A DNA stretch of 64,000 nt from a virus. The stretch spans positions 1-64,000 of the IMG/VR virus record IMGVR_UViG_3300005253_000051; one strand, 5' to 3'. Shown piece after piece: positions 274 through 64,000 of the stretch; position 1 is the stretch's first letter; each line of letters opens with the position of its first letter. The position numbers were made by a program, and so were the translations under genes. The notes beneath the pieces were generated by a model, which saw nothing but the letters and a program-made list of their open reading frames with translations, did not search any database and was not told the DNA's origin.

Positions 274-540
274 ATGATTCCAACATGGGCCTTGTCGGTT
301 TTCGCATTTGTGTTTCTGACTGTGTTTTCAATCGCGGCATGGGGGATCAAGCAAGCAATCGGTCGTGTCGATGATCGCCTCAACAAGCTCGACGACAAAG
401 TTGGTAAGGTCCAGGATACCGTGAACAAGATCGATCGGCGCGTTGTTCGCGTCGAAACGATCATCGACAGCGGCGACAGCGGAGACGCGCGACGGCGCCC
501 GAGCAATAGTTCGATTACTCCGTTACCACCGGCGGCATGA
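274..540 (+). CDS. Small membrane-anchored coiled-coil protein
   Basis: 88 residues. A strong ribosome site (GGAGGAG) lies just before the ATG. Residues 4-26 form one hydrophobic helix (WALSVFAFVFLTVF), then residues 30-65 show heptad spacing of Leu/Val (RLNKLDDKVGKVQDTV), a coiled coil, and a polar Ser/Pro tail. The shape fits a phage spanin-like or holin-accessory protein, but no family signature is visible, so the role is unknown. It leads a short plus-strand run with the next two genes. Confidence 0.65.
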   Translation: MIPTWALSVFAFVFLTVFSIAAWGIKQAIGRVDDRLNKLDDKVGKVQDTVNKIDRRVVRVETIIDSGDSGDARRRPSNSSITPLPPAA

Positions 541-549
541 GGTGAAGAT

Positions 550-783
550 ATGGCCAAAGTGAAAATCAGCGACTACGACCTTTGTCGTGTCGGTACCGTT
601 GCGCACAATCAGGATTTTACAACGCGAGATCTTTCCGAATACTTGGGCAAGGATGCACGGGCCATGGTGCGCCGTATGCTCAAAGAAGGCATGATCGAGC
701 GTGTGGGCCCCCGCGGAAGACGGTACTTTCCAACCACTAAGGGCTGGCGGAACATCGAGAACGCTTGCGAATATCGGCGGTGA
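550..783 (+). CDS. Small winged-helix protein
   Basis: 77 residues. The order is helix, helix-turn-helix (FTTRDLSEYLGKDARAMVRRML), then a short beta wing (RVGPRGRRYFPTT). This is the compact winged-helix fold common in phage repressors and DNA-binding accessory proteins. The Arg-rich wing and recognition helix support DNA binding. Its target is unknown. The next gene overlaps its stop codon, so the two are probably translated together. Confidence 0.6.
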   Translation: MAKVKISDYDLCRVGTVAHNQDFTTRDLSEYLGKDARAMVRRMLKEGMIERVGPRGRRYFPTTKGWRNIENACEYRR

Positions 784-1388
784 GAAAGAAGTGGCCACCG
801 TTCGGTTTGCTCGATGCGGCGCCGAGGTTTTGGTGGCGCAAGTCACTTCCTAAAAGAGCGCTGTCGAAGGTCTGTTTCCGCACCAAGACCGACGCGCTCA
901 ACGTCTTCGCCGACTACAACCGAACCACGATCGACAACTACGGCGGCGAAGACGCGCTTCATCGTCCATCCGAGTTCGAGGCGATCAACCACCTCTACGA
1001 TCTCAAGGACAAGCGCAAGGTTCGCACGATCGCACAAGCGCTGTGGGAATCGCTACGCGTCAAACGCGGGCCCTATTGTCTCGATGACATCAACGTTCAA
1101 ATCCTGAACGAAACCGCGCCCGGCGAAAAGGGCGTCGGGTTTCAGGTGCCCGACGTCGCTCAAGAAGCGGCGCTGGTTTCCGAGGAAGAGGGCTATCATG
1201 AAGGGCGAGCGATCGACGAAGGTCGCATCTCCGATTGCTTCAACGTGCGGCGTTTGGTTCGACAGCGTAAGGGCCGCGCCGCTCGGTCTGAACTACGGCG
1301 GCGGCGCACCGAACGCCAGTGCGTGTGTCGGGATGATCGTGGCCGGTTCATCAAGTGCCCGGCGTACGAGCCCGAGGTTCCGTTTTAG
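780..1388 (+). CDS. Hypothetical protein, coupled to the winged-helix gene
   Basis: About 202 residues from a GTG at 780 that overlaps the upstream TGA; a TTG at 765 is an alternative. A basic N-terminus precedes a mixed-charge central domain (ADYNRTTIDNYGGEDAL; KVRTIAQALWESL), and a short Cys-containing segment (CVCRDDRGRFIKC) lies near the C-terminus and may bind metal. No family is recognised. The overlap suggests it acts with the upstream DNA-binding protein. Confidence 0.5.
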   Translation: MRKKWPPFGLLDAAPRFWWRKSLPKRALSKVCFRTKTDALNVFADYNRTTIDNYGGEDALHRPSEFEAINHLYDLKDKRKVRTIAQALWESLRVKRGPYCLDDINVQILNETAPGEKGVGFQVPDVAQEAALVSEEEGYHEGRAIDEGRISDCFNVRRLVRQRKGRAARSELRRRRTERQCVCRDDRGRFIKCPAYEPEVPF

Positions 1389-1390
1389 TG

Positions 1391-1870
1391 CTAGGGCCTG
1401 AGCCAGTTGAAGACGAACGCGGTAGCGCTACCACTAGTGACGCTTAGGACGGCGAGCACAACGACAATTTTCCACGCTCTTTCTTTGGCGATCACGTGCT
1501 TCTCAGCGTTGTCGTCGGCTTTCTTTTCGATCGCAGCAACTCTGCCGTTTTTACCGTCGATACCCGTGAGCGCAATCATGCGTTCGTGATCTATGTCTTG
1601 CTTGCTGCGCATGGCATTCGTCACAGCGTTCGAGCGCTCGTGACGGCTCACACAATCGCGTTCTTCGGTTTTTGTCTTTTGGAGCGCTTCTATCTTTTTT
1701 TCGGCTCGCGTTAGACGATCGAGAATAGCTTCTGTGTTTATCGGCACGGCATCACTTCCTAATGCGCTTCTCTCCACGCGGGCATCGTACTCTGCGGCCG
1801 ACGGGCTCCAGCATAGAATAAGCGCGAGTGCCCACCTTGCAGCGCTGTTTACGAGGATTCCAGTGACCAC
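1391..1870 (-). CDS. Secreted or periplasmic coiled-coil protein with C-terminal membrane anchor
   Basis: 159 residues from a GTG. Residues 8-26 look like a signal peptide (WALALILCWSPSAAE). The middle is a charged helix with coiled-coil character (LTRAEKKIEALQKTKTEE), and residues about 135-157 form a C-terminal membrane helix ending in NWLRP. It could span the periplasm or sit in a viral membrane. Its first 119 bases overlap the gene ending at 1752 in another frame, which is unusual. Confidence 0.6.
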   Translation of the reverse strand: MVTGILVNSAARWALALILCWSPSAAEYDARVERSALGSDAVPINTEAILDRLTRAEKKIEALQKTKTEERDCVSRHERSNAVTNAMRSKQDIDHERMIALTGIDGKNGRVAAIEKKADDNAEKHVIAKERAWKIVVVLAVLSVTSGSATAFVFNWLRP

Positions 1871-1988
1871 GTGGGCAACCGATCAGAAGCCAAACCTTCC
1901 CTCGGTGAATCCAGCGGAAACTACGCCGATCAAACGAGCGCTCCGGTGCTTCTAGGCGCTCACAGAACGTCCCCGAGATCTTAGCCAT
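1752..1988 (-). CDS. Small basic Cys-containing protein
   Basis: 78 residues, very rich in Arg and Lys with three spaced cysteines in the second half (CPRGHW, QRCKVG, VRCPRG). The ATG follows AGGAAACGCA and overlaps the stop of the membrane protein upstream. The composition suggests nucleic-acid binding or packaging and matches the theme of small basic Cys proteins elsewhere in the window. Assignment as a real gene rests on ribosome site and coupling. Confidence 0.5.
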   Translation of the reverse strand: MAKISGTFCERLEAPERSFDRRSFRWIHRGKVWLLIGCPRGHWNPRKQRCKVGTRAYSMLEPVGRRVRCPRGEKRIRK

Positions 1989-2388
1989 TGCGTTTCCTGG
2001 TCCAGTAGTAGATCGCGCCTCCGACTGCGGCAGCGAGCCCAGTACCTCCGACCCACCAGATCGCTCGACCGCCCGCAAAACCCCCGAAGGCGCCGGCTCG
2101 ATGCTCGGACTCAAAGTCCTTGGTCAACTCGCGTGCGACGAGCTTGCGGGTCGCTACCGAGAAAATCTGGTTCCACGCCGATGGTCGATCAAACTCTTTG
2201 GCATAGCGCTTGGCGCAGGCGTCGGCGACGTATTTGAAGGCTTTGTTGGCCTTTTTCGAGTCATAGATGCCGCGCTTTTTCTTCTTCAGGAGGTTGCTCT
2301 GGATGGCAATTTTCTGCTTGTAACAGTCGTACGTGTTGGTGTTGTCGATGTACAACTCAAGTTCTTGGGCAGCCTGGGTGTCGGGCAT
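1981..2388 (-). CDS. Membrane protein with C-terminal helix and basic tail
   Basis: 135 residues. A soluble alpha-helical domain (residues 1-105) with many Lys residues is followed by one Gly/Ala-rich membrane helix near residues 110-130 (VGGTGLAAAVGGAIYYW) and a short basic tail (TRKRNG). The same design recurs in several neighbours including the two lytic enzymes, suggesting a shared membrane, either host or virion. No family recognised. Confidence 0.6.
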   Translation of the reverse strand: MPDTQAAQELELYIDNTNTYDCYKQKIAIQSNLLKKKKRGIYDSKKANKAFKYVADACAKRYAKEFDRPSAWNQIFSVATRKLVARELTKDFESEHRAGAFGGFAGGRAIWWVGGTGLAAAVGGAIYYWTRKRNG

Positions 2389-2459
2389 GGTTTTATTGTC
2401 CTATTTCCGGTAACTTCCCGCAATGGTAAGCTGTATCCTGATCTAACGCGAGGAAGCTA

Positions 2460-3323
2460 ATGCTTGGAAATTTCGGAGCTTTGCCGTTTGGACATTTCGG
2501 AGCTGAGGAGCCTCAGTTCCCAAAATTTGTGAGCACCCTCCAAAGATTCGTGAACTCCGAGAATGCTCTCCATGCGGCCTATACGAATATCAGTACGCTT
2601 GCTCAGATTGCGGGGCCAGATGCCGAACTGCCGGTGAGGCTTTTGGTCCAATACAATCTCGCGCGCGAGGTGTTTCTGGATGGCATCGTTGATTGGCTGG
2701 AGGCTCGGAAAAGGACTCCTGATTTGCCTGATGCAGACAAGGAACCTACGCCGCCCCCCGCATTGGAGATTCCAACACCGCCAATTAGCGGTTTTGGTCA
2801 AGCGACTGTGCCGGCTAGCAGCGTTCGGGTGATATTTGGTCCCGTCGGGGCTCAAAAAGTAGTTTCCCTCGGTGACGCCCAAGCGCCCTTTGTTTGGTCT
2901 CAGCATCCGGGGATGAGCGGTGCTGGTTTAGGAGTTCCATGGGTGCCGATTATTTGGCTAGCAGGGCTTGCTATTTTCGGCGTCACGATCGTGCTCTATA
3001 TGAGGGAACGAGAGCGAGCTGAAGTTATAGCGAATGCTTCTCTTGCTAGACAATCAGAAAGTCATTCTATTGCGGTGGAGTTTGCATCAAGGACTCTCTT
3101 CAACCTATACGAAAAATGCGTTGGAGATTCTCTTGATGAGGCCCATCGCCAGGTGTGTCTGGACAAATCTCACAAAGCAGTAGAAACCATCATCGCGGCA
3201 CTTCCAAAACCGATTCCGCCAAAAATCGGGCTAAGTTTTCTTGGTAAGGTTGGGGCTGTCTTGCTCGCAGCTGCTGCCGGTGTCGGTGTGTATTTGTACT
3301 ACCAGAAGCGCAAAGAGCGCTAG
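2460..3323 (+). CDS. Two-helix membrane protein
   Basis: 287 residues. It has a soluble N-terminal domain, a Pro-rich linker (EPTPPPALEIPTPP), a first membrane helix near residue 165 (IIWLAGLAIFGVTIVLY), a charged middle domain with two cysteines, and a second C-terminal helix (VGAVLLAAAAGVGVYLYY) with the basic tail QKRKER. It starts the plus-strand pair with the gene at 3326, two bases downstream of its stop. Function unknown; a virion or envelope-associated role is inferred from architecture. Confidence 0.6.
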   Translation: MLGNFGALPFGHFGAEEPQFPKFVSTLQRFVNSENALHAAYTNISTLAQIAGPDAELPVRLLVQYNLAREVFLDGIVDWLEARKRTPDLPDADKEPTPPPALEIPTPPISGFGQATVPASSVRVIFGPVGAQKVVSLGDAQAPFVWSQHPGMSGAGLGVPWVPIIWLAGLAIFGVTIVLYMRERERAEVIANASLARQSESHSIAVEFASRTLFNLYEKCVGDSLDEAHRQVCLDKSHKAVETIIAALPKPIPPKIGLSFLGKVGAVLLAAAAGVGVYLYYQKRKER

Positions 3324-3325
3324 CT

Positions 3326-4000
3326 ATGTTTGGAGCTGCGGGGGAAATAACTGAGAAGCTTCGTGAGCATTGTACGGCGAGGGCTGATATCCCGTGGGGG
3401 CCGATCCAATGTCAACGTTTGATCCGCCAGCTTACCGGCCGGGGTGAAGATCCAAAGCAGGTCGTTCGAGCCCTTGCGAATACGTTGCTATATATTCCTT
3501 TTAGCTCGATGCTGTCGCCGCTTTGGTATTGTATTCCAGAGCGGGGAGAGTGCGCTCCTGAAGTTGCGAAGATGCACGCGATGGCCGCGCTACTTCTTTC
3601 GACCATGGGTCAACACCACATCGTGAAATCAGTAACTGCTTTTACGATTGCACTCGAACGGTATGGGTTAGATGCACGTGAAGAGGAGACGTTGATCAAT
3701 TCGCTGCGAGGCATTTTGATCAGCATTCCTGAACTGTCAAAAAGAGGCATCGATGGAAAACTCATCCATCCTGAGGTTGCTGCCCGCGCTATTCTTGCAG
3801 TTCAGATCGCAGCAGATCCAAGATCACCTTTGGCTGTGCAGCAGTTTGCGCAAGAGATTCTACCAAAGTTGCCCGACGTGACTATTTCTGTACCGCCGCT
3901 GGAGAAACCGAAATTCCCCACAGGCCCTGTCGTGTTCGCGTTCGGCTTGATCGCGGCGATCGGGGCGCTGATTTTCTACGCCGACTCGATTCGCGACTAG
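3326..4000 (+). CDS. Helical protein with C-terminal membrane anchor
   Basis: 224 residues. Largely alpha-helical, with scattered cysteines (EHCTAR, IQCQRL, YCIPERGEC), a Pro-rich stretch near residue 190 and one C-terminal membrane helix (VVFAFGLIAAIGALIFY) followed by ADSIRD. It follows the previous membrane protein almost without a gap. No family is recognised. The two probably form a pair in the same membrane. Confidence 0.6.
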   Translation: MFGAAGEITEKLREHCTARADIPWGPIQCQRLIRQLTGRGEDPKQVVRALANTLLYIPFSSMLSPLWYCIPERGECAPEVAKMHAMAALLLSTMGQHHIVKSVTAFTIALERYGLDAREEETLINSLRGILISIPELSKRGIDGKLIHPEVAARAILAVQIAADPRSPLAVQQFAQEILPKLPDVTISVPPLEKPKFPTGPVVFAFGLIAAIGALIFYADSIRD

Positions 4001-4188
4001 CGGTCTATGCGTGCTACAGCGTTCAGGATGTTGGTGGCCGAGTCCACCTTGTGTTCGACCGTGGAAAGCCTGGACTCGACGGCCCCAAGTTTGGACTCCA
4101 CACATTCCAGCCGCGACTCCATGCTGCTGATGCAGTCTGCCAAACCACCGATCGCAGCTAGGATCTCTTGTGTCCCCGAGTCCGTCAT
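3997..4188 (-). CDS. Short coiled-coil protein
   Basis: 63 residues starting MTDSGTQEIL. Repeating heptads (SRLECVESKLGAVESRLSTV) give an almost uninterrupted coiled coil, likely an oligomeriser. It lies just after the M23 peptidase gene and overlaps the end of the convergent plus-strand gene by four bases. Function unknown; it may be a fibre-like or bridging partner of the membrane proteins. Confidence 0.55.
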   Translation of the reverse strand: MTDSGTQEILAAIGGLADCISSMESRLECVESKLGAVESRLSTVEHKVDSATNILNAVARIDR

Positions 4189-4193
4189 TGATT

Positions 4194-5228
4194 CTATTCC
4201 CACTCCACAACGCGCCACTGTCGGTACACCTCTTGAAGTTCTGTCGCGGCCTCCGAACACGTGTCTCGAATTCGATCTCCCCACGGGCCGTCCTTGTCGA
4301 ACAAGCTGAGCTGCCACTTCCCTTTCGCTTTTGTGGACGGGTGTAGGATGGCGAAGTTTCCGGGGTTTTTTGTGGCTTCAAATTGAGCGACCTTGAACGG
4401 CCGCACGCACTTCCATTTGCACGTTTCTCCTTGAAATTCTGGGTGCCAAGTGCCAGCAACCTCCATCTTTCGAACTTCTTTGGGGGAAAAAGCCGGCACA
4501 CACTGTCGCTCGATGGGCGGGCCGCCTGTTCCTGAAAAACCGCGGCCTCGTTTGCGGCCTTCGATGAAGACGAAGGCTCCCACGCCGATCGCGACGAGTG
4601 CCGAACCAAGTGCGAACCACTTGCCTGCATTGAGTGACCTTTGGTACGGAAGTACGTTACGGCTGCGCATGCGTTCGAGTGCATCGGGCGTGTATTGATC
4701 CAGCGGCACGACGGGCTCACCAGGAACCGCGGTTCCACGATTCCAGGTGTTGCCCCACCCCGTTGTGGGTTGACCATAAGCACGCGCGAATTCGCCTAGC
4801 TTCGATTTATCTAGCAGCATCGACAGGTGAAGGTGCGGCCCACTCACGCCGCCGGTGGCGCCAGCGTAGCCGATGACTTGACCGCGTTTAACGGTCTCGC
4901 CTTTTTGCACGGCGACGCTATCGAGATGCATGTAGCGGCTCGACCAGCCGTTGGCATGTTGGATCCCAACAAAGATCCCTGTCGGGTCCGGGTACATGCG
5001 CGCGGTGTAGACCTTGCCCGGCGCCATCGCGAGCACCGGGGTGCCTTTCGGCATTGCGATGTCGATGCCCTGATGAAAACGAGTCCCTTCGCTTCGTAGG
5101 TCGCCCCACACACCGCTGGCAACGAGCGGGGCGTAGGCAGCCGGCCGACTAAATTGGATGCCAGGAAACGGTGTTGGAAGGGCTCCGAGGGGAACACCGC
5201 TAAACATCCTGCCCCCGCCAGATCGCAT
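4194..5228 (-). CDS. M23-family peptidoglycan endopeptidase with membrane anchor
   Basis: 344 residues; MFSGVP seven codons in is an alternative start. The M23 (LytM-type) zinc site is complete: FHQGIDIA (His52, Asp56) and GPHLHLS near residue 140. This family cuts peptide cross-bridges of peptidoglycan. After the catalytic domain comes a membrane helix (WFALGSALVAIGVGAFVFI) and a 115-residue Cys-containing C-terminal domain (C-x3-C) that I do not recognise. It overlaps the transglycosylase gene, so the two probably form one wall-degrading unit. An anchored M23 enzyme fits virion-associated wall entry better than simple lysis. Confidence 0.85.
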   Translation of the reverse strand: MRSGGGRMFSGVPLGALPTPFPGIQFSRPAAYAPLVASGVWGDLRSEGTRFHQGIDIAMPKGTPVLAMAPGKVYTARMYPDPTGIFVGIQHANGWSSRYMHLDSVAVQKGETVKRGQVIGYAGATGGVSGPHLHLSMLLDKSKLGEFARAYGQPTTGWGNTWNRGTAVPGEPVVPLDQYTPDALERMRSRNVLPYQRSLNAGKWFALGSALVAIGVGAFVFIEGRKRGRGFSGTGGPPIERQCVPAFSPKEVRKMEVAGTWHPEFQGETCKWKCVRPFKVAQFEATKNPGNFAILHPSTKAKGKWQLSLFDKDGPWGDRIRDTCSEAATELQEVYRQWRVVEWE

Positions 5229-5919
5229 ACCCGATCATGCCGGCGCCCGCGAGGGCGCCGATGACGATGGCCCACTTCCAGGTCTGAGGGGCGCCGCTCA
5301 GACTTAGGCCAGCGGGTGTGACATGGGGGAACAGGAACAAAAACGGGCTGAGCGTTCCGTCGAGGCTTGTAAGGCGCCCCGCTGCCATTGTGTAGAACAG
5401 ATCAACCACGGAGCGCTGCCAGCGTTGTCTTCCCGGGTTGGACAGGTGTTGTGTGGCGCCGGCTTGAGCCGCGTACTCGAACACGTTGTCGTGGGTGACC
5501 GGAATCCCTTTACGTTCGAGGTAGTCGGCGACGCGGCCGACGCCGCCGGCTTCGCTGTAACCGCTGTTCCAACCGGCGGTCAAGAGCTTGATAAATTCGG
5601 GATTGCTCCAATTCTCCTGCATATTTAGAACGCCAGGATGGTTGCGTTCGTACGAGCGAATGATCCTACTAATCGTGTCGGTAGCAATCCTGGTATTGAT
5701 CACGGGGTCGAGCAAATCAGTACGCTGGTAGCTGGTGCCGTGGCGCTTGTTGTAGTCGTTCAAGACGACTCGAATGACTTGGAGCAATCCCCACGCCGGG
5801 CCATTTGCCTCGCGGGGATTCAGGTTTGATTCGCGTTTGGCCAGCGCGCGCAAAAACGGCACTGGAAGCCCTCGTCCGTGTTTGCGGAAGATCACGTCAT
5901 ATTTTTGCGAAGTAGGCAT
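5200..5919 (-). CDS. Lytic transglycosylase-like muramidase with C-terminal anchor
   Basis: 239 residues from the ATG at 5919, chosen because AGGAGG lies just upstream. The SLT-like core includes LAKRESNLNP (catalytic Glu of the ES motif) and the GLLQV segment typical of soluble transglycosylases, then the TAGWNSGY segment. It would cleave the glycan strands of peptidoglycan. A C-terminal membrane helix (WAIVIGALAGAGMIGYAIW) matches the neighbouring M23 enzyme, whose start it overlaps. Together they attack glycan and peptide bonds. Confidence 0.8.
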   Translation of the reverse strand: MPTSQKYDVIFRKHGRGLPVPFLRALAKRESNLNPREANGPAWGLLQVIRVVLNDYNKRHGTSYQRTDLLDPVINTRIATDTISRIIRSYERNHPGVLNMQENWSNPEFIKLLTAGWNSGYSEAGGVGRVADYLERKGIPVTHDNVFEYAAQAGATQHLSNPGRQRWQRSVVDLFYTMAAGRLTSLDGTLSPFLFLFPHVTPAGLSLSGAPQTWKWAIVIGALAGAGMIGYAIWRGQDV

Positions 5920-6029
5920 CGGTGCCTCCTGTAAATCCGCAGGCATCGGAGCGACGATCGCCGCAACGGTGGCGGTTACAAGCATGCTTAACGCTATCGG
6001 ATTACAGAGGTTTTTGGTAGCGTAGAACC

Positions 6030-6719
6030 ATGGCCTACGAGCAAACGAATGCTTGCGCCGACGGCGGCGATTTTCAGTGTTCAGTCAAGGGAGGCATCTT
6101 TTCGTGCCGCCCGTGCGATTTCCCGCAACTTGAAGTGTTCAAAGGGCTCCAAACACAGACGAATCGGCTTCTTTCTGGCTTTGGAATTCAGCTCCCTGCT
6201 GATCGCCGAGACGGCGCTGCTCAAAGTGTTCTGTGGGTAGACGGGCGCCTCGGTCCCAAGACGGCTACGGCAGTTTCACTCGTAGCGATCAAGGCCGAAG
6301 AAAAAGGCTATCGACCAATCCCGCCGGCTGTTCCTCTGATGCGACTACCGGGCTTTATTGAGGCGCTGAAAAATGCGGCCACCGCGCCATCTGGTGTTGC
6401 GAAGTACGCGCCTGAACTGTTGGTCTACTTCAAAAGCGTGGCCGACAAAATCCAAGCTACTACTCCTCCTAGTGGGATTCCTACCCCCGAAGAGCGTGGC
6501 CAGAAGCCCGAAGAGGATGAAATTCGAGCCCGTCCGCCGCGCAAGAAGAAATCCACCTGGATGTGGTGGGCTCTCGGAGGCGCTGTACTCGTCGGAGCGG
6601 GCGTCTTCGGTTACTACTACTGGTACAAGCCAAACAGAGCACGTGCTCTGTCTGGGCACGGTGATGGCGACCAAGATGACGATCCGTCATCCTACTTACC
6701 TGGGGTGCGAGATTACTAG
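6030..6719 (+). CDS. Peptidoglycan-binding-like membrane protein
   Basis: 229 residues. The N-terminus has several cysteines (ACADGGDFQC, FSCRPC). Residues about 60-90 include VDGRLGPKTATAV, the pattern of PG_binding_1 domains, which suggests wall binding. A charged linker (EERGQKPEEDE, RPPRKKK) leads to one membrane helix (WWALGGAVLVGAGVFGYYYW) and an acidic tail. It is divergent from the transglycosylase gene and may dock the lytic machinery. The domain call is moderate. Confidence 0.6.
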   Translation: MAYEQTNACADGGDFQCSVKGGIFSCRPCDFPQLEVFKGLQTQTNRLLSGFGIQLPADRRDGAAQSVLWVDGRLGPKTATAVSLVAIKAEEKGYRPIPPAVPLMRLPGFIEALKNAATAPSGVAKYAPELLVYFKSVADKIQATTPPSGIPTPEERGQKPEEDEIRARPPRKKKSTWMWWALGGAVLVGAGVFGYYYWYKPNRARALSGHGDGDQDDDPSSYLPGVRDY

Positions 6720-7095: not shown

Positions 7096-7299
7096 ATGGC
7101 ACTTGGAACTACCAAAGGAATGCACTGTATTCGCTTCAAGCGTACTCGCGCCGGCAAACGCTGTGCAAAATATGCAGGGGGTCGAAGAGGCCGAGGCCGA
7201 GGCCGAGGGCGTCGGCATCTTGGAACCACCGAGGGGATGCACTGCGTTCGCTACAAGAAAACCCGTTCTGGCCGTCGCTGTGCGAAATACGCGGACTGA
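7096..7299 (+). CDS. Basic protein with two CxRxKxTRxGRRCAKY repeats
   Basis: 67 residues. Two copies of the motif C-[IV]-R-[FY]-K-x-T-R-[AS]-G-[KR]-R-C-A-K-Y (starting near residues 10 and 49) are joined by an Arg/Gly linker (GGRRGRGRGRGRR). AAGGAGAAAGACAGCC precedes the ATG. The charge suggests binding to DNA or another polyanion, and paired cysteines may bind metal or form disulfides. The same motif recurs in the proteins at 39195 and 41472. I know no named family for it. Confidence 0.65.
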   Translation: MALGTTKGMHCIRFKRTRAGKRCAKYAGGRRGRGRGRGRRHLGTTEGMHCVRYKKTRSGRRCAKYAD

Positions 7300-7430: not shown

Positions 7431-7766
7431 TCAGTGGATCGCGATGGCGGTGTAGTAAGCCGGGGGCGCTTCGAGAAGCGCTTCGATGAACAGGATCTCC
7501 TGCGAGAATAGCGGATCGGTTTGGATCAGTTTCTGAGCCCGGTGGTGCGCTGCCATGCACGTCGTGTGGTGCTTGTTGAGTACTCGGCCGATGGATGGCC
7601 AGCTCATCGATTTGCGTTCGCGGGCGAGCCAGACGAAGGCGTCGCGGGCGCGTACGATCTCTTTGTATTTCACCCTGCTGCATAAAACAGCCATCGTGAA
7701 CCCGTAGTACTCGGCTACGTTTTTGAGAACGAGTTGCGGTCGAATCGCGATCCAGCTCGTGGTCAT
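7431..7766 (-). CDS. Stand-alone DnaA domain IV-like DNA-binding protein
   Basis: 111 residues from MTTSWIAIRP. Residues about 13-85 match the DnaA C-terminal DNA-binding domain: helix NVAEYYGF, SRVKYKEIVRARD as the basic loop, and WPSIGRVLNKHHTT in the place of the DnaA signature (IGRxxGRDHTT type). The AAA+ ATPase domains of DnaA are absent. The protein could occupy or mark DnaA boxes, steering or blocking host or phage replication initiation. His-His replaces Asp-His in the signature. Confidence 0.75.
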   Translation of the reverse strand: MTTSWIAIRPQLVLKNVAEYYGFTMAVLCSRVKYKEIVRARDAFVWLARERKSMSWPSIGRVLNKHHTTCMAAHHRAQKLIQTDPLFSQEILFIEALLEAPPAYYTAIAIH

Positions 7767-8923: not shown

Positions 8924-9424
8924 TCATTGTAGCAGCTCCTGTGCGAGCGCTTCGTCCCCGGCCACGACCGCGGCGCCTGCGGCTTGCCGCAGTTCTTCGT
9001 CAAGATTTCGCCCACAGCTGAGATCTCGGATGACCCAGCGCGCAAAGGCGATCTGAATCTCACCGGAATCGACACCGGCGTGACCAGCGTCACAGGCGGC
9101 ATAGGAGGCATGGGTGCCGTCGGAGGTGATGTCGGCGATGGCATCGTAGGCGGCTAAAGCGGTATAGGTGGCGGCAGAAGCGGCGGCGCGGTCGTCGCCA
9201 GAAGTAGCGGCGGCGCGGGCGATGGCGGCGCGGGCAGCGCAAGCGGCGGCGCGGGCGCCGCGATGGGCGTTGGGTTCATCATTCACACAGCCTTCTGCAA
9301 TCTCGATCGCAGCTACAACATCAGATCGTCGATCCCCACCGTAAAACGGCAGCGCTAAACGAGCACATTCCACAGCGAATCCGACCGCGTTGCGGTTATC
9401 ATTCCAGTCTCGTTCGTAGTTCAT
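8924..9424 (-). CDS. Ala-rich core paralog 1 (Imm-5-like)
   Basis: 166 residues. Conserved N-block: MNYERDW, GFAVECARLALPFY, AIEIAEGCV. Residues about 60-120 are a low-complexity Ala-rich core (RAAACAARAAIARAAA). The conserved C-block includes IQIAFARWVIRDL, EELRQAAGAAVVAGDE and AQELL. The N-block and Ala-rich helical core resemble the Imm-5-like putative immunity family of Actinobacteria and Myxococcota; I infer that link by eye. It is last of four tandem copies, each overlapping the next by ATGA. Confidence 0.75.
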   Translation of the reverse strand: MNYERDWNDNRNAVGFAVECARLALPFYGGDRRSDVVAAIEIAEGCVNDEPNAHRGARAAACAARAAIARAAATSGDDRAAASAATYTALAAYDAIADITSDGTHASYAACDAGHAGVDSGEIQIAFARWVIRDLSCGRNLDEELRQAAGAAVVAGDEALAQELLQ

Positions 9425-9918
9425 CCGAGCAGTTCCCGCGCGAGCGCTTCGTCACCGGCTACAACCGCGGCGCCCGCGGCTTGACGCAGTTCTTCGTCTA
9501 GATCTCGATCTACGCTGAGATCTCGGACGACCCAGCGAGCAAAGGCGATCTGAATCTCGCTGTAATCTACACCGGCATCGTCGGCGTAGTCGGCGGCGAA
9601 CACGGCGGTGGCGCGAATGGCGTCGGAGGTGTAGTGGGCAGTGGCACGGGCGGCAGCGTAGGCAGCGGCACGAGCGGCGGCGGCGCAGGCGGCAGAGGCG
9701 TCATCAACGCCGCTCGCGACGCCGCGGGCGGCGGCGAGAGCGGCAATTCGGGTGGAATCATCTATTTGTTCTCCGCTCGTATAGCGTTCCGCAATCTCGA
9801 TCGCAACTACGAGATCTGATCGTCGATCTCCGCTGTAAAACGGCAGTGCCAGACGCGCACACTCCGCAGCGAATCCAACAGCGTTTCGGGAATCTGTCCA
9901 TTTGCGTTCGTAGTTCAT
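9421..9918 (-). CDS. Ala-rich core paralog 2
   Basis: 165 residues. Conserved ends (MNYERKW, ARLALPFYSGDRRSD; QIAFARWVVRDLSVDRD). The core carries runs such as AACAAAARAAAYAAARA with Asp and Thr interruptions and is about the length of copy 1 but differs in nearly every non-Ala position. The shared ends and divergent core suggest that the ends are the structural or interaction frame and the core the variable part. Confidence 0.75.
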   Translation of the reverse strand: MNYERKWTDSRNAVGFAAECARLALPFYSGDRRSDLVVAIEIAERYTSGEQIDDSTRIAALAAARGVASGVDDASAACAAAARAAAYAAARATAHYTSDAIRATAVFAADYADDAGVDYSEIQIAFARWVVRDLSVDRDLDEELRQAAGAAVVAGDEALARELLG

Positions 9919-10418
9919 CCGAGCAATTCCTGCGCGAGCGCTTCGTCGCCCGCTACGACCGCGGCGCCCGCGGCCTGGCGTAGTTCTTCGTCAAAATCTC
10001 GCCCACAGCTTAGATCTCGGATAACCCATCGCGCATAGGCGACTTGGATTTCACTATCGTCAACACCCGCTTTACTAGCCCAATGGACGGTATCGGCGGC
10101 GTCGCGGGCGACGTCGGCATCGGTGGTGGTAGTGGCATAGCAGGCGGCGGAGGCGGCGTAGGCGGCTGGATCGGCTGGATGTGGTGGGCCCTCGGAGGCG
10201 TAGGCGGTGGCGTGGGCGGCGTCGTTAGCGGCGCCGCGAGCGAAGTAGGCGGCGGCACTATCTATTTGCTCACCGTTCGCACAGCGTTCTGCAATCTCGA
10301 TTGCAGTTATGAGATCTGATCGTCGATCACCTATGTAAAACGGTAGTGCCATACGAGCACATTCAGCGGCGAATCCAACCGTGTTCCGGGAATCTCTCCA
10401 GTTTCGCTCGTAGTTCAT
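9915..10418 (-). CDS. Ala-rich core paralog 3
   Basis: 167 residues. N-block ARMALPFYIGDRRS and C-block VDDSEIQVAYARWVIRDL are kept. The core includes a Pro-containing stretch (GPPHPADPAAYAAS) and a Thr run (YATTTTDAD), absent in its neighbours, so the core is not simply duplicated. It is translationally coupled to copies 2 and 4. Confidence 0.75.
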   Translation of the reverse strand: MNYERNWRDSRNTVGFAAECARMALPFYIGDRRSDLITAIEIAERCANGEQIDSAAAYFARGAANDAAHATAYASEGPPHPADPAAYAASAACYATTTTDADVARDAADTVHWASKAGVDDSEIQVAYARWVIRDLSCGRDFDEELRQAAGAAVVAGDEALAQELLG

Positions 10419-10909
10419 CCGAGCAATTCCTGTGCGAGTGCTTCGTCACCAGCCACAATCGCAGCGCCCGCGGCTTGGCGTAGTTCTTCGTCAAGATCTC
10501 GATCACAGCTCATGTCGCGGACCGCCCAGCGAGCGAAGGCGATTTGAATCTCGCTGGAATCGACATCAGCATCAGCGGCGGAGGCGGAGGCGGCGTGAGC
10601 GGCGTTGGCTGCGCCGTGGGCGTGAGCGGCGTTTGCGGCGGCGTAGGCGGCGTAGGCGGCAGCGTAGGCGGCAGCGTAGGCGGTAGCATCGTGGATGGTG
10701 CGGACGGCGACAGCATTGGCGGCATAGGCGACGGCGCGGGCGGTGGCACTATCTATTTGTTCCCCATTTACACAGCACTCTGCAATCTCGATCGCAGTTA
10801 CGAGATCTGATCGTTGATCACCGCTGTAAAACGACAGCGCCAGGCGCGCGCATTCCGCAGCGAACCCAACCGCGTTGCGGTCATCATTCCAGTCTCTCTT
10901 GTAGTTCAT
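10415..10909 (-). CDS. Ala-rich core paralog 4
   Basis: 164 residues. The core is close to a pure Ala/aromatic repeat (YAAAYAAAYAAYAAANAAHA), resembling an amphipathic Ala helix with Tyr/His at intervals. Both conserved ends are present (MNYKRDW; FARWAVRDMSCDRD). Its ATG overlaps the stop of the recombinase gene by ATGA, so recombinase and paralogs 1-4 look like one transcript. Confidence 0.75.
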   Translation of the reverse strand: MNYKRDWNDDRNAVGFAAECARLALSFYSGDQRSDLVTAIEIAECCVNGEQIDSATARAVAYAANAVAVRTIHDATAYAAAYAAAYAAYAAANAAHAHGAANAAHAASASAADADVDSSEIQIAFARWAVRDMSCDRDLDEELRQAAGAAIVAGDEALAQELLG

Positions 10910-11790
10910 CAGCTCAGATCCGGGAATTTTTCGCCTAGCGCATCGTGGTTGTGGGTGTAGCGGTCGGTCATCGGGTGATGATCACCTCCGCCGACGACAC
11001 CATGACCGGTGATCTGCCGGATTTTCCAGTCATGCCAGCCTGCTTCGCGCGCCATTGTGACGAACGTGTGACGAAGCCTGTGCGTATGAAATTCACGCAC
11101 ACCCATATTTTCTGCGTGCTCACGAAGGATTCTATATACAGATCGAGGGGTTAGGCTGTCCCCGCTGCGCCAATTACCCGAGGTTGAGGGCCGGAGTGAG
11201 CGAAACACACGACCTTTTGTGACCTGTTGCGTTTTTAGCCACGTAATCCAGTTTTCGAGCGCTTCGAGCGCTTCGCCACCGATGGGCACGTGATGCCAGC
11301 GCCGGCCTTTCACGACGACGGAGATCACACCCTCGCGTACGTATTTCAGTTCCATGGTGGACAGTTCTTCGCAGCGGAACGCAGCGTGAAGGCCAGTGAG
11401 AAACATCGCGCAATCACGCAGACCCATCGGGCCAGGTGCAGCCGAGCATGATTGCAAAATCGATCGACACTCGTTCGGCGTGAGTGCATCACTTTTGCCG
11501 TCTAGATCGGGGCTACCAGAAATCCCGTGTGGGTTTTCCACGGAGCGGGCGAAATCTTTGGTGTCGTGGGTGTGAGCGTAGCGCTTCGAGGCGTAGCGCA
11601 CCGCGACCAAATATGACGAGACAGTTTTTGGCGCTAGGCCGTTGGTGAGCAAGTGGTTGCGCCAGCGCTCGACCTCCTGGGTGGTCCAGCCATTGGCGAA
11701 CTCGACGAACGCGCGCACGCGTCTGAGATACTGCTGTTTGGTGCGCGGTGCGCGCTCACCGGCTTGGACGACTCGCTCTAGCTCAGTCAT
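10909..11790 (-). CDS. Tyrosine recombinase / integrase
   Basis: 293 residues from MTELERVV, chosen for the overlap with the upstream stop. The N-terminal SAM-like core-binding domain spans about residues 10-90 (TKQQYLRRVRAFVEF). The catalytic residues are present: Arg139 (AAFRCEEL), Lys161 (VKGRRWHH), His237 and Arg240 (HRLRH), His263 (TGHG) and Tyr278 (DRYTH). It should carry out site-specific strand exchange for integration, excision or dimer resolution. No att site is recognisable beside it. Confidence 0.88.
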   Translation of the reverse strand: MTELERVVQAGERAPRTKQQYLRRVRAFVEFANGWTTQEVERWRNHLLTNGLAPKTVSSYLVAVRYASKRYAHTHDTKDFARSVENPHGISGSPDLDGKSDALTPNECRSILQSCSAAPGPMGLRDCAMFLTGLHAAFRCEELSTMELKYVREGVISVVVKGRRWHHVPIGGEALEALENWITWLKTQQVTKGRVFRSLRPSTSGNWRSGDSLTPRSVYRILREHAENMGVREFHTHRLRHTFVTMAREAGWHDWKIRQITGHGVVGGGDHHPMTDRYTHNHDALGEKFPDLS

Positions 11791-12029: not shown

Positions 12030-12304
12030 CAGTCTGCCTTTTTAACGGTACGTGCTGTGGGAATGTTCTCTCTGGTTCGTTGACGAAACCACTCTCCTAG
12101 CCAGATCATCGTGATGCAAGGGATCGTTAGCGGCCAGACAAGACCAATTGCAAGACAACGCAATACTAGTTCGAAGTCATCGAAGTATGAGTAGGGTCCC
12201 TTGATTTTTTCGAAAGCGCCGTAACGTGCACCGAGCGCGCAGAAGATAACCAGACAGACGATTCCGAAACCAATCAACCACGTGAATAGGATGTACATGT
12301 TCAT
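12029..12304 (-). CDS. Two-helix membrane protein
   Basis: 91 residues. Two hydrophobic helices (ILFTWLIGFGIVCLVIFCALG and LAIGLVWPLTIPCITMIW) flank a short charged loop, with a basic tail. It could be a small inner-membrane protein of the phage. It sits between the integrase accessory gene and an Ala-rich paralog, overlapping both. Function unknown. Confidence 0.55.
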   Translation of the reverse strand: MNMYILFTWLIGFGIVCLVIFCALGARYGAFEKIKGPYSYFDDFELVLRCLAIGLVWPLTIPCITMIWLGEWFRQRTRENIPTARTVKKAD

Positions 12305-12696
12305 TCCAAAAGTTCCTTGGCGATGTCCTCGTTGCCCCCGGCGATGGCGGCGCCCACGGCCAGACGTAACTCTTCGTCGATCACTCGATCGCCCACTAGA
12401 TCTTTGAGCGCCCAGCGGGCGTAGAGCTGGGTCAACTCAGTGTGACACGCGCGGCCCCCAGCGGCGCGCTTGGCCGTGAGATTGGCTGCTTCGCTCGCCT
12501 GCGCGACGTAGTTGTCGGCAGGTGCTTCGTTGAGCTGCATCATCTTGGCGTTATGTGTGGCGAAGTGTGTGAGCGCAGCTGAGTCATGAGTATCGGCACA
12601 CGATTGCCCTTCAGCAGCGATGTAGCTGAGTTTCGTGCAAGCGGACGCGAAGCCGGCGGCGTTTTCAGCATCACGCCAGGTGTGTTCGAAGTTCAT
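12301..12696 (-). CDS. Ala-rich family member 5, short core
   Basis: 131 residues from [16 protein letters not shown]. The N-block lacks the LPFY motif (it has ACTKLSYIAAEG) and the core is short and mixed (HFATHNAKMMQLNEA). The C-block is clear: LYARWALKDLVGDR, EELRLAVGAAIAGG, AKELLE. It is a diverged copy with a minimal core, indicating that the C-block is the most conserved element. The start overlaps the methyltransferase stop. Confidence 0.65.
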   Translation of the reverse strand: MNFEHTWRDAENAAGFASACTKLSYIAAEGQSCADTHDSAALTHFATHNAKMMQLNEAPADNYVAQASEAANLTAKRAAGGRACHTELTQLYARWALKDLVGDRVIDEELRLAVGAAIAGGNEDIAKELLE

Positions 12697-13283
12697 GCGT
12701 ACCGCCGGCACAGCCCGCGCGCCCATGAGCCTTGCCAATCAACACGGCGCCCAAAGCGCCGGTGCAACTTGGTCATCTCGGGCAAGTTGCTGGTGCAGAT
12801 GTTGTCCCAAATGTCGTGCCACGCACACGTCCATCGTTGCCCCCTCGCGGGTTTCCATGTGAACGCATCGCCTTCGATGATTTCCAGACGATCGCCGTAT
12901 CGATCTTGGTAGTGCGGGCCCACCAGTTCGATGACTTCGGGCGACTTCTCGACCACGGTCACGCGCTCTACGCGGCCGTTTTCAAGACACCCCTGAAGTA
13001 CCATGCCGAGTCCGAGCCCGTGGATGAGCACGTCGCCGCATGCGCGATTGATGAAGTCTGTGTGATCCAGAATCTCGGCTGTGGTGTCACTCATGACGAG
13101 AGTGTGACCGCGCAGAAGTTGTGTGTATATCCCGGGATCGATGTACCGAGCGCCCGGTCGAAACGCGGCACGAAGATTGCTGAGTTTCACGTCTTCTTTG
13201 GTGAGCGTCATGCGTTCGACTTTCCAGATGCCCGACTGGCCTTCAGGGACGTTCACTTTGTATTTCTCAACCAAGCTCGTCAC
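12693..13283 (-). CDS. Class I SAM-dependent methyltransferase, spermidine-synthase-like
   Basis: 196 residues. Motif I ([13 protein letters not shown]) is a Gly-rich SAM loop, followed by [13 protein letters not shown] (acidic residue for the ribose) and IIEGDAFTW. This resembles the Rossmann core of spermidine-synthase-like methyltransferases found in phages. The substrate is not deducible. It overlaps the alpha-CTD gene upstream by ATGA, so the two are co-expressed. Confidence 0.7.
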
Positions 13284-13690
13284 TGGTTTTCCCTCGGCCA
13301 GTTATCAAACTTCATTCCGAGTGAGAGACCCATCTCGGCAAGAATCTCTTTGACTTCTTTGAGAGACATGCGGCCGAAGTTTTTCGTGTTGAGCATCTGG
13401 GACTCAGTTTTCTGAACTAGCTCGCCAACGTACTCGATGTTGTCTAGATACAATCGGTTGGCGACGCGAACTGAAAAGGGTAGCTCGTCTACCGTTCGCG
13501 ATAAGATCTCGTTAAGTCTTTCATCGACTTCCCCCTGCCCCTGCCCGTGCCACTTGCAGCGTTCGACCTTGACGTGCACGATCGCGCCCTTAATGAGTTT
13601 GTGCTGCGCTATCCCATAACCGTTCAAATGCCACAGGTGATTGCCACATGGGCAGATGCGCCAATCCGACGGTCGGCCTTTGAATCCCAT
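13280..13690 (-). CDS. Zinc-site protein fused to an RNA polymerase alpha C-terminal domain
   Basis: 136 residues. Residues 66-136 align with the host RNA polymerase alpha-CTD ([51 protein letters not shown]). In E. coli numbering Arg265, Asn268, Gly296 and Ser299, used for UP-element DNA, are kept, while Cys269 is Arg, Lys298 is Met and Glu261 is Pro. Residues 13-48 hold C-x-C and C-x2-H, a possible zinc site, instead of the alpha N-terminal dimer domain. It could bind promoters or activators without joining polymerase, redirecting transcription. Confidence 0.8.
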
Positions 13691-16209: not shown

Positions 16210-16483
16210 GGATTTCTCTCCTCGCGATTCTGTCCAGGATCGCCCGGCGTTTTGAGATCTTCGGCTTCGCCGCGCGGCGCCATTCGTAGAGCAACTTCGC
16301 GGTGCGCACGGCGTTTTTATCGTTGACTAGTTTCTTTTCCAAGCGGCCGAAATACCGCTTATCAAATAACGGCCACGGGTGAAACTTGAACCAATTATTT
16401 CTTTTTCGGGCTTTGATTTCCGTGTTGTAACTCAGATCAATTTTCCATTTCGGCCAGCGGTTCCAGTCTCGTTTATTACTCAT
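16202..16483 (-). CDS. Small basic Trp-rich protein
   Basis: 93 residues, basic and aromatic (RDWNRWPKWKIDLSY, NNWFKFHPWPLFDKRYFG, LLYEWRRAAKPKISKRR). The N-terminal pattern MSNKRDWNRW faintly echoes the Ala-rich family start, perhaps by chance. Function unknown; nucleic-acid or membrane-surface binding would fit the composition. Confidence 0.5.
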   Translation of the reverse strand: MSNKRDWNRWPKWKIDLSYNTEIKARKRNNWFKFHPWPLFDKRYFGRLEKKLVNDKNAVRTAKLLYEWRRAAKPKISKRRAILDRIARREIHG

Positions 16484-17007
16484 AACTTTCCTTGGACGAG
16501 TTTGCTGGCCAAATCTTCATCGCCCGCCACGACCGCGGCGCCCGCCGCGAGCCTCAGTTCTTCGTCGATCTGCTTGTCACCAGCTAGGTCCCACACGACC
16601 CAGCGCGCGAATGCAACATCCACGTCATGAGTATCGACTCCGGCATCGAACGCGTGCCGGATGACTGAATCTACGACGTAGATGCGCGAGGTATACGAGG
16701 TAAACGAAGTGCGCACGGAGCGGGCGCACGCGGCAGCGGCGCGCGCCGCCGACCGGGAAGGGCGTCCGCTGGCACCGAGGCTCAGGTCTTTGCTCGCCCA
16801 GAATGCGCCGTCGGCGAGTTTTTCAGCGTGCTGCTTGTCTATTTTGTCACCACGGGCATATTGCTCGGCGATTTCGATGGCGGATACGATTATTTGGCGG
16901 CGGCGGTGGTTTGGGTCGCCGACGTAGAACTCCAGCGCCAGCTGCGCGCATGCGGCACAGAAACCGGCCGCATTTTTCGGATTTATCCAGTCTCGCTGGT
17001 AGTTCAT
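16480..17007 (-). CDS. Ala-rich family member 6
   Basis: 175 residues from MNYQRDW. The N-block is kept (GFCAACAQLALEFYVGD; SAIEIAEQYARGDKI). The core is less Ala-pure (SAARAAAACARSVRTSFTS). C-block: VDTHDVDVAFARWVVWDLAGDK, LRLAAGAAVVAGDE. The Arg/Ser-rich core differs in composition from copies 1-4. Confidence 0.7.
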   Translation of the reverse strand: MNYQRDWINPKNAAGFCAACAQLALEFYVGDPNHRRRQIIVSAIEIAEQYARGDKIDKQHAEKLADGAFWASKDLSLGASGRPSRSAARAAAACARSVRTSFTSYTSRIYVVDSVIRHAFDAGVDTHDVDVAFARWVVWDLAGDKQIDEELRLAAGAAVVAGDEDLASKLVQGKL

Positions 17008-17075
17008 GTTCGGCATTGTTACGGGACTTCTAGAAGCCAAGTTCGGTTTTGCACAGGACATACGCCCTGAAATAA

Positions 17076-17294
17076 TCATTCGATGTCTTTTGCTGCCTTT
17101 TGCAAGTTACGGCGGAACGCCGCGAGCCCAGCGGAAGCGCCTTCGACAAAAGCCGCCGCGTCGTGATCTTGACCCAGGCCGACAAGAACGAGGTATCGAG
17201 CAGCAGCGGCTTCTTTGACCCCCCGCTCACGAGCGAAGTTCCGCAATTGATCAAGCGTGTCGGCATCTATGCGGAACGAGATGATTTTAGACAT
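17076..17294 (-). CDS. Ribbon-helix-helix-like DNA-binding protein
   Basis: 72 residues. IISFRIDADTLDQL (beta strand then helix) and ERGVKEAAAARYLVLVGL fit the CopG/Arc ribbon-helix-helix fold, which binds operators as a dimer. It sits between two Ala-rich paralogs and is a candidate regulator of the cluster. No operator was identified. Confidence 0.6.
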   Translation of the reverse strand: MSKIISFRIDADTLDQLRNFARERGVKEAAAARYLVLVGLGQDHDAAAFVEGASAGLAAFRRNLQKAAKDIE

Positions 17295-17805
17295 CGATCT
17301 CTCCTTGGACTAGTTTTCTAGCTAGTTCTTCATCCCCGGCCACGATTGCGGCGCCCGCGGCTTGGCGGATTTGCTCGTCGAGTTGATCACAGCTGAGATC
17401 TCGGACTACCCATCGGGCAAAGGCGATTTGCAGCTCGCTGTCACAGACGCCAGCATGGGAGGCGTAGATGGCGGCGCGAGCGATGTAGATGGCGGCGGCG
17501 GTGAAGTCGGTGGCGGCGCGAGCTGCGCAAGCGGCGGCGCGAGCGGCGGCGTAGGCGGAATCGGCGTCGGTGGAGTCGGTGGCGGCATAGTCGGTGGCAT
17601 AGGCGGAGTAGATGGCGGCACGAGCACCGGCACGAGCGGTAGTACTGCTTATTTGTTCCCCGTTCACATAGCTCTCTGCAATCTCAATTGCAGTCACGAC
17701 ACCGGATCGTCGTTCGCCGCCGTAAAACGGCAACGCCAGACGAGCACACGCGGCGGCGAATCCGGTGGCATTTCGCAAGTCGTTCCATTTGCGTTCGTAT
17801 TTCAT
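17287..17805 (-). CDS. Ala-rich family member 7
   Basis: 172 residues from MKYERKW. N-block: GFAAACARLALPFYGGERRSG. The core has Tyr/Thr/Asp punctuation (YATDYAATDSTDADSAYAAA). The C-block has the variant VCDSELQIAFARW, shared with members 8 and 15, marking a subfamily. Overlaps the HNH gene by ATGA. Confidence 0.75.
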   Translation of the reverse strand: MKYERKWNDLRNATGFAAACARLALPFYGGERRSGVVTAIEIAESYVNGEQISSTTARAGARAAIYSAYATDYAATDSTDADSAYAAARAAACAARAATDFTAAAIYIARAAIYASHAGVCDSELQIAFARWVVRDLSCDQLDEQIRQAAGAAIVAGDEELARKLVQGEIDV

Positions 17806-18344
17806 ACGTACGGAATCCAGCCTTTTCCAAACAGAACGCTGCGGCACTTGTCACACGTGATCGAGAGATCACTTCCTGAGATGTTGTCGCGGGCGCCGCA
17901 GTAGGCTGTAAGCGGGTAGCAGCTATTTTCGGCGTGTTTGGGTTCCCATCGGCCGGGCTCGGGCAGACCGCCGGCATACTCGATTAGCTCGTAGACGCGC
18001 TGCTGCTGTCCACGCGGGAAGTAGTGCGCCCAGAACTGATCGTGAAACGGATCATTGGTGCTCTTGCGGTAGTTGCATGAGCTACACGCAGGAACGCAGT
18101 TGCCCAACACCGAGTGACCGCCGCGCCCGAGCGGCACGAAGTGCTCCAGCTGAAGCGGCCGGGTTTCGCACGAAACGCCGCAATAGGCGCACGTGTACTC
18201 GAAAAATTCGAGCGTGTAGCGCCATTCATCAAGCGTAATGCGGGCTATGTAGCCGCGTCTGCGAGCTTCTGTACGCGCGTTGGTCGCTTGGTACGTGGCG
18301 TACTTGTAATGGGCGTCGCGGCCGTATCTGGGTCTTCGAGCCAT
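17802..18344 (-). CDS. HNH endonuclease
   Basis: 180 residues. The HNH core is complete: CAYCGV, LQLEHFVPLGRGGH, NCVPACSSCNYRKS. Two CxxC pairs hold structural zinc and the His in LEHF is the general base. A basic N-terminus (RRPRYGRDAHYK) could bind DNA. It may be a homing nuclease or a phage nuclease acting on host or competitor DNA. Confidence 0.85.
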   Translation of the reverse strand: MARRPRYGRDAHYKYATYQATNARTEARRRGYIARITLDEWRYTLEFFEYTCAYCGVSCETRPLQLEHFVPLGRGGHSVLGNCVPACSSCNYRKSTNDPFHDQFWAHYFPRGQQQRVYELIEYAGGLPEPGRWEPKHAENSCYPLTAYCGARDNISGSDLSITCDKCRSVLFGKGWIPYV

Positions 18345-18348
18345 GATT

Positions 18349-18846: not shown

Positions 18847-18870
18847 GGATCCACCCTATCAAAAATAACT

Positions 18871-18891
18871 AAAGTAGACAACGTCTACTTT
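18871..18891. promoter_or_regulatory. Perfect 9-bp inverted repeat (operator candidate)
   Basis: AAAGTAGAC, three bases, GTCTACTTT, in the gap just upstream of family member 8. The short spacer suits a dimeric repressor site better than a transcript hairpin. Inferred from symmetry only. Confidence 0.5.
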
Positions 18892-18921
18892 ACGTCCGTA
18901 TCGTTGAGAAATACGGACGTA
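18891..18921. repeat. 11-bp inverted repeat hairpin
   Basis: TACGTCCGTAT, nine bases, ATACGGACGTA, immediately adjacent to the operator-like palindrome. It could form an RNA hairpin between members 9 and 8 or be a second protein site. No T-run follows on either strand, so it is not a classical terminator. Confidence 0.5.
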
Positions 18922-18965
18922 GGCTGGTTCTTGGGCCGCGCCAAATGCCTGTGAATCCGAGCTGG

Positions 18966-19481: not shown

Positions 19482-19966
<485 letters not shown>

Positions 19967-19972
19967 CCCGCC

Positions 19973-63724: not shown

Positions 63725-63923
63725 TTTCCTCTTCTTCCCTTCTTTTGTGCTTTTGAGGGGGCAACTTTACCCCTAGTTCCTGGGCTTTTTTGTAGAACCA
63801 CCCTCGTTCTTTGCCCAAATACTCCGCCGCATCTGAGGCACTTCCGGTAAATTCGAGTGCGTGGCGCAAGATGATGCGGTCGCTTTCATCACGCATCATC
63901 CTGTAACGGTTAGACTTTTTCAT
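63585..63923 (-). CDS. Fis-type helix-turn-helix protein
   Basis: 112 residues from MKKSNRYRMMRDESDR. Helix ILRHALEFTGSASDAAEYLG then WFYKKAQELGV is the HTH_8 pattern of enhancer-binding regulators. The acidic/Pro-rich second half (LDDSPLPDIPDDEEEDRR) lies in the overlap and could be spurious. Possible regulator. Confidence 0.55.
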   Translation of the reverse strand: MKKSNRYRMMRDESDRIILRHALEFTGSASDAAEYLGKERGWFYKKAQELGVKLPPQKHKRREEEENVGCERELLGNLDDSPLPDIPDDEEEDRRAGSGEPGIEEMPPGDPG

Positions 63924-64000
63924 CGTTACCCGTAGTAATGATTTCGCTAGTGACGGCGTCGTAGGCGGCAGAAGCAGAATCATAGGCGGAGATGGCGGCG
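63910..64000 (-). CDS. C-terminal end of an Ala-rich protein, cut by the window
   Basis: 30 codons read AAISAYDSASAAYDAVTSEI then end before the HTH gene. Ala/Tyr/Ser-rich like the paralog cores, but the family C-block is missing, so membership is uncertain. Confidence 0.4.
   Translation of the reverse strand, partial: AAISAYDSASAAYDAVTSEIITTGNDEKV

Follow-up and report, generated by a model that had tools for sequence, protein, structure and literature searches.

Clustered C-terminal membrane helices and a putative pair of single-jelly-roll capsid proteins suggest a tailless, membrane-containing virion for an 81-kb circular virus genome

Introduction

The tailless, membrane-containing bacterial viruses described in the open-licence literature have genomes of about 10-44 kb, with members of Singelaviria at or below about 31 kb, and we found none as large as 81 kb in that literature. 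Salisaeta icosahedral phage 1 (SSIP-1) is an unclassified icosahedral virus with an internal membrane, a T=49 capsid and a circular genome of 44 kbp (PMC6260650, PMC6356626). Viruses with two single-jelly-roll capsid proteins are now placed by the ICTV in the realm Singelaviria (Halopanivirales, kingdom Helvetiavirae) (PMC12451622). PRD1 (Tectiviridae), PM2 (Corticoviridae) and FLiP (Finnlakeviridae) have a double-jelly-roll capsid protein.

The genome described here resembles that of SSIP-1 in being circular dsDNA, in carrying an integrase gene and in encoding a transglutaminase-like protein homologous to the SSIP-1 virion protein gp34. In SSIP-1, seven proteins with Gly-rich C-terminal helices adjoin the capsid genes, and two capsid types have been proposed. 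However, the SSIP-1 genome is about half the size, or less, of those of the lineage studied here, its capsid proteins display no sequence similarity to the candidates presented below, and it has a virion-associated ATPase of the AAA_25 type; no counterpart of this ATPase was found in the virion module of our genome. The similarity to P23-77 and SH1 lies in the presence of two adjacent small capsid proteins (232 and 185 aa in SH1, 291 and 173 aa in P23-77, and 235 and 164 aa for the putative pair here, all sizes being taken from record coordinates), in the internal membrane (predicted here) with its numerous small helix proteins, and in the lytic enzymes encoded in the module. The differences concern genome size (16-31 kb in P23-77 and SH1), the FtsK/HerA packaging ATPase of these viruses, which was not found here, and capsid proteins with no similarity in sequence. 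PRD1, PM2 and FLiP also have small membrane proteins, and virion murein hydrolases in this group are membrane-anchored (PRD1 P7 and the FLiP lytic enzyme), but their capsid proteins are of the double-jelly-roll type, their genomes are only 9-15 kb long, their replication is protein-primed, rolling-circle or ssDNA-based, and a packaging ATPase is known for the first two.

Genome and lineage

The window, by which we mean the whole 64,000-nucleotide stretch analyzed, corresponds to bases 1-64000 of an IMG/VR record of 81,505 bases. The two ends of this record have a 121-base exact direct repeat in common, and the genome is therefore complete, being either circular (81,384 bp) or bounded by short terminal repeats. 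As the record is circular, the left edge of the window is an arbitrary cut, and statements concerning presence or absence are valid for the whole genome because the circle is closed. End repeats were also found in five relatives, of 77.5-137.9 kb. The lineage currently consists of 17 contigs, several of which are complete; the complete relatives are 77-138 kb long and the contigs extend up to 221 kb. The original prediction that the genome would be large for a virus of this kind was supported: 81,384 bp, versus the ~10-44 kb described, is about twice the largest genome that we found described for a tailless internal-membrane bacterial virus.

All nine genomes compared have in common the transglutaminase-like protein, the 235-aa and 164-aa proteins, a tyrosine integrase (10909..11790, minus strand; Pfam PF00589, E=2.5e-19), a Cys-containing protein and a small membrane protein. 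One core gene, encoding a membrane protein and conserved in 9/9 genomes, is located on the minus strand (63910-64377 of the record, the window containing 63910..64000). The presence of the integrase in all nine genomes suggests a probably temperate lifestyle, but the lineage yielded no clean provirus. Two possible host links were rejected. A Gemmatimonadota “chromosome” with a relative (L018) provided only a weak link, the relative being located on a 61-kb piece between 100-N scaffold joints, and the contig matched in an Actinomycetes metagenome-assembled genome (MAG) was wholly viral (28 kb). Gambelli et al. (2016; PMC5099504) described a 197-kb “genome 1” obtained from a culture harboring a tailless membrane phage; this genome was considered as a member of the lineage and rejected, as it has terminases.

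Membrane-helix proteins and peptidoglycan enzymes

Membrane helices were called with an uncharged hydrophobic segment test, a crude predictor, on gene calls from the present analysis; a test based on Kyte-Doolittle values only was discarded because it gave false positives on beta proteins. The seven open reading frames named in the original prediction exist at the positions given for them, but the single design attributed to them, with one C-terminal helix, held for five: 1391-1747, 1981-2388, 3326-4000, 5200-5985 and 6030-6719. The first of these (minus strand) has a coiled-coil soluble part and a helix at residues 94-113, and the second (minus strand) has the helix AIWWVGGTGLAAAVGGAIYYW followed by the tail TRKRNG. 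The proteins encoded by 3326..4000 and 6030..6719 (both on the plus strand) have helices at residues 199-219 and 175-198, respectively, the latter followed by an acidic tail of 31 aa and accompanied by a weak peptidoglycan-binding-like stretch. By contrast, the product of 2460..3323 (plus strand) has two helices (residues 161-181 and, at the C-terminal end, 264-281; tail QKRKER), and the sole helix of the protein encoded by 4194..5207 (minus strand) is located mid-protein (residues 197-215), upstream from a C-terminal domain of ~120 aa. The description of the helices as Gly/Ala-rich was accurate for most of them (33-48% Gly+Ala), but not for that of 1391-1747 (20%). The tails had been described as mostly basic; some are (net charges of +1, +3 and +3), but others have charges of -1, 0 and -2, the last of these values being that of the 31-residue tail of 6030-6719. 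Another gene of this structural module, 274..540 (plus strand), encodes 88 residues that include a coiled coil and, at the N-terminal end, a membrane helix; its product displays a weak match (E=2e-6) to a PHROGs family of unknown function.

C-terminal helices were detected in 14 of the 35 genes extending from 67.0 kb, through the record ends, to 7.1 kb, versus 1 of 95 elsewhere in the genome (p=1.3e-8). This contrast is large despite the crudeness of the predictor, and at its true extent the clustering is far beyond chance. When this genome and eight relatives were pooled, 87 of 349 proteins encoded near the capsid-candidate gene (within 12 kb) had such a helix, versus 59 of 915 elsewhere (p=5e-18), and the enrichment was individually significant (p<0.05) in seven of the nine genomes. 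Dense runs of short C-terminal-helix proteins adjoin the transglutaminase-like or capsid-candidate genes in G006, G007 and G011. For the tailed controls lambda, Mu and HK97, none of 59 structural proteins had a C-terminal helix. The frequencies in internal-membrane phages were 7/27 for SSIP-1, 5/25 for P23-77, 3/24 for PRD1, 2/10 for FLiP and 1/12 for PM2, some of these positives being beta-strand false positives (e.g. PRD1 P5 and P23-77 ORF28). The first 7 kb of the window are one end of the shell-and-membrane (virion) module of this uncultivated virus.

The identification of two peptidoglycan enzymes in this region was confirmed. The product of 4194-5207 is an M23 peptidoglycan endopeptidase (Pfam PF01551, E=5e-29), and that of 5200..5985 (minus strand) is an SLT lytic transglycosylase (PF01464, E=1.6e-8) with a Gly/Ala-rich C-terminal helix at residues 238-256. 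PRD1 P7 opens the peptidoglycan at entry. By analogy with P7 or the FLiP lytic enzyme, both of which were among the C-terminal-helix positives in the controls, the SLT protein is likely to be a virion-associated entry enzyme, and the domain content of the M23 protein suggests that it, too, is likely to act at entry. Each of these enzymes was detected in only a minority of the relatives. A PHROGs match annotated “endolysin; inhibits RNA polymerase” was not retained, as no amidase domain was found in Pfam to back it.

Candidate capsid proteins and the homologue of SSIP-1 gp34

The two candidate capsid proteins, of 235 aa (78425-79132 of the record) and 164 aa (79208-79702), are encoded on the plus strand at the center of the module, and are followed on the same strand by three repeat-type beta proteins, extending up to 81422. 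Both candidates are all-beta, soluble and devoid of membrane helices. IMG/VR contains 15 relatives of the 235-aa protein (54-64% identity), carried by contigs of 39-221 kb; searches of 50,697 phage records and 72,556 plasmid records yielded no relative. The 164-aa protein was present in 15/15 genomes or records searched, including this one, and in two more contigs in another scan, with ~28-40% identity to the copy in this genome; a single-sequence scan with this protein yielded no relatives, but an alignment search did find them, and the copy from a relative had no match in the 50,697 phage records.

AlphaFold2 models of the two proteins, based on 16 and 12 sequences, were poor (mean pLDDT of 63 and 71). 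The Foldseek lists for both nevertheless consisted mostly of single-jelly-roll viral capsid proteins, although the PDB is rich in picornavirus-like capsids, which weighs against such lists. The PDB neighbors of the 164-aa model were STMV, BMV, CCMV and picornavirus VP1, and those of the 235-aa model were picornavirus VP2/VP1, circovirus and nodavirus proteins; the best PDB E-values were only 2.5e-3 and 6.5e-3, and the TM-scores were low (<0.4 in most cases). In a viral structure library, the best match was to a CRESS-type “Capsid” (E=5e-4). The resemblance of the two conserved module proteins to single-jelly-roll capsid proteins is therefore suggestive, and the putative capsid plan looks like that of P23-77 and SH1, and probably SSIP-1. 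Comparisons of the candidates with the P23-77 and SSIP-1 capsid proteins in hhalign yielded nothing, and the HMMs of the module families had no capsid match in P23-77, SH1 or SSIP-1.

The transglutaminase-like core protein (74928-75692 of the record, plus strand; Transglut_core) has an N-terminal helix and is predicted to be membrane-anchored. It was found in all loci examined, with an invariant Cys-His-Asp (Cys184, His216 and Asp232). The HMM of this family matched the SSIP-1 structural protein gp34 with an E-value of 9.6e-17, and gp34 as a single sequence had matches in 10 of 11 genomes or contigs of the lineage. The Cys-His-Asp and the Transglut_core domain are common to the two proteins, and gp34 is anchored, according to the uncharged-segment test, by its own C-terminal helix, GGGILLGGGYLIA. 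Judging from these sequence comparisons, the core protein is homologous to gp34. A tblastn search with gp34 against the 50,697 phage records matched only gp34 itself and one 4.5-kb fragment. The gp34 family is the only one for which homology between a virion protein of SSIP-1 and the lineage was found.

Tail, terminase and packaging genes

Tail and terminase genes were looked for across the entire circular genome. Pfam and PHROGs scans of nearly all the predicted proteins (all except one core membrane protein and a small number of Ala-rich repeat proteins that are almost identical, with the PHROGs results for 86 small proteins of <=293 aa comprising the best 25 of 99 families) revealed no terminase, portal, HK97 capsid or tail protein. 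A tailed phage (Caudoviricetes) with head, tail and packaging genes too diverged for recognition, and in which the membrane and lytic proteins served as holins, spanins, endolysins and host-surface proteins, would account for the replication genes, encoding PolA, an SNF2-type helicase and a PD-(D/E)XK exonuclease, which match tailed-phage families, and for the weak profile matches to a T7 capsid assembly protein (E=2e-4) and a tape-measure family (E=0.006), which we took as noise. We nonetheless consider a tailed phage improbable: the TerL profile (phrog_2) was positive in 11 of 14 control genomes but in none of 13 lineage members (this genome and 12 relatives), and the portal profile (PF04860), positive in the controls, was also negative in all 13. 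Furthermore, the only proteins of more than 350 aa are replication, defense or ATPase proteins, a metallopeptidase/VWA-like protein and one coiled-coil protein, leaving little room for TerL, a portal and a tape measure together, and the structural proteins of the tailed controls lacked the C-terminal helices that abound here.

No known type of virion packaging ATPase was detected in the genome. FtsK (PF01580) was detected in the controls but in 0/13 lineage members; in a Walker A scan, the only standard P-loop of the genome was that of a MoxR-like AAA protein outside the module, and no P-loop protein other than replication proteins was lineage-wide. This result, together with the CRISPR array and Cas12 effector and the tyrosine integrase, could also be reconciled with a plasmid or other non-virion element, the module of which would encode a cell-envelope structure (a machine for secretion or conjugation, or of the contractile type) equipped with murein hydrolases anchored in the membrane. 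The many membrane proteins and the lack of a packaging ATPase could also fit an enveloped, capsid-less vesicle virus resembling pleolipoviruses. The vesicle virus is very unlikely, given the two conserved all-beta soluble proteins with jelly-roll-like models at the center of the module; for unstructured vesicles, moreover, 77-221 kb would be a large genome size. The non-virion element is also very unlikely: the module and the SSIP-1 virion have a protein in common, the relatives come from a virus collection (IMG/VR), the 235-aa protein is absent from the plasmid records, and the structural-module scan gave only a thioredoxin-type TraF match, none of the scans turning up another conjugation gene.

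The evidence thus favors an internal membrane over a tail, as originally proposed, on the basis of the putative capsid pair, the gp34 homologue and the lack of tail and terminase genes. The suggested affinity to tectiviruses was not upheld: neither an FtsK/HerA packaging ATPase nor a double-jelly-roll protein was found, the module containing no candidate of ~270-400 aa and its conserved beta proteins being of 235 and 164 aa. In view of the lack of an FtsK/HerA ATPase, we do not file the virus under Halopanivirales or Tectiviridae.

Proposed virion and its implications

We consider it likely that the genome is that of a complete circular, probably temperate, tailless dsDNA virus of bacteria, most plausibly with two single-jelly-roll capsid proteins surrounding an inner lipid vesicle. 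The putative jelly-roll proteins encoded by 78425-79132 and 79208-79702 would form an icosahedral shell around the predicted vesicle. Membrane proteins produced late would insert into the host cytoplasmic membrane via their Gly/Ala-rich C-terminal helices, and the coat proteins would assemble on this membrane, yielding an icosahedron lined by the vesicle. The C-terminal-helix proteins would provide the protein complement of the vesicle, the contacts between membrane and capsid, and a device for DNA delivery. At entry, the anchored SLT and M23 enzymes may digest the peptidoglycan locally, as P7 does in PRD1, after which the vesicle would reach or fuse with the cytoplasmic membrane and deliver the DNA.

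We also lean, with less assurance, towards an undescribed lineage of high rank, consisting of tailless membrane-containing bacterial viruses with no known packaging motor and with two single-jelly-roll capsid proteins that have gone unrecognized. Their genomes, of 77-221 kb, would be about two to five times as long as that of SSIP-1 (44 kbp); the lineage occurs across metagenomes and has no member among 50,697 sequenced phages. Given the sizes of the complete genomes (77-138 kb) and of the contigs (up to 221 kb), such a lineage would be new in both size and capsid sequence. If this is correct, a single-jelly-roll capsid plan can serve bacterial viruses with large genomes, and the lineage has a bearing on how large such bacterial virions can become and on whether a terminase or FtsK-type motor is required for a large genome. 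It offers proteins suitable for testing: the two putative capsid proteins, the membrane enzyme with the Cys-His-Asp common to SSIP-1, and the C-terminally anchored set.

Other features of the genome

A CRISPR array of 21 36-nt repeats (window positions 25873-27340) adjoins a gene on the minus strand (27337-28872) encoding a compact, 511-aa Cas12u1/Cas12f-like effector (PADLOC, E=1e-50); no cas1 or cas2 was noted, and the spacers inspected, from the first part of the list, had no match in the relatives. The minus strand also carries about a dozen paralogous Ala-rich proteins of ~165 aa (8924-10909, 12301-12726, 16480-21991 and 35373-36684), some in tandem in units of ~495 bases. A DUF2201 metallopeptidase/VWA-like protein and a MoxR-like AAA ATPase form a pair (33857-35122 and 37259-38347, minus strand); relatives of both genes are present on a Gemmatimonadota-binned contig, the MoxR-like gene of which is close to that of G012. 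A small protein carrying the C-terminal domain of RNA polymerase alpha (Pfam, E=6e-20) is encoded at 13280-13690 (minus strand; gene assignment inferred from sequence), and another, encoded by 7431-7766 (minus strand), has a DnaA C-terminal DNA-binding domain (E=1e-14). Genes for thioredoxin-like (66775-67092) and DnaJ-like (76258-76839) proteins adjoin the virion module, and thioredoxin-like proteins are also encoded near the capsid-candidate genes of relatives.

Tiny basic proteins (7096-7299, 39195-39377 and 41472-41723) contain two or three tandem copies of a motif like CIRFKRTRAGKRCAKY and are possibly DNA-condensing. Finally, 42336-44611 (minus strand) consists of three tandem diverged copies, in units of ~760 bases, of a beta-rich protein of ~250 aa, with a related copy at 38475-39185; these proteins are likely adhesin or spike candidates.
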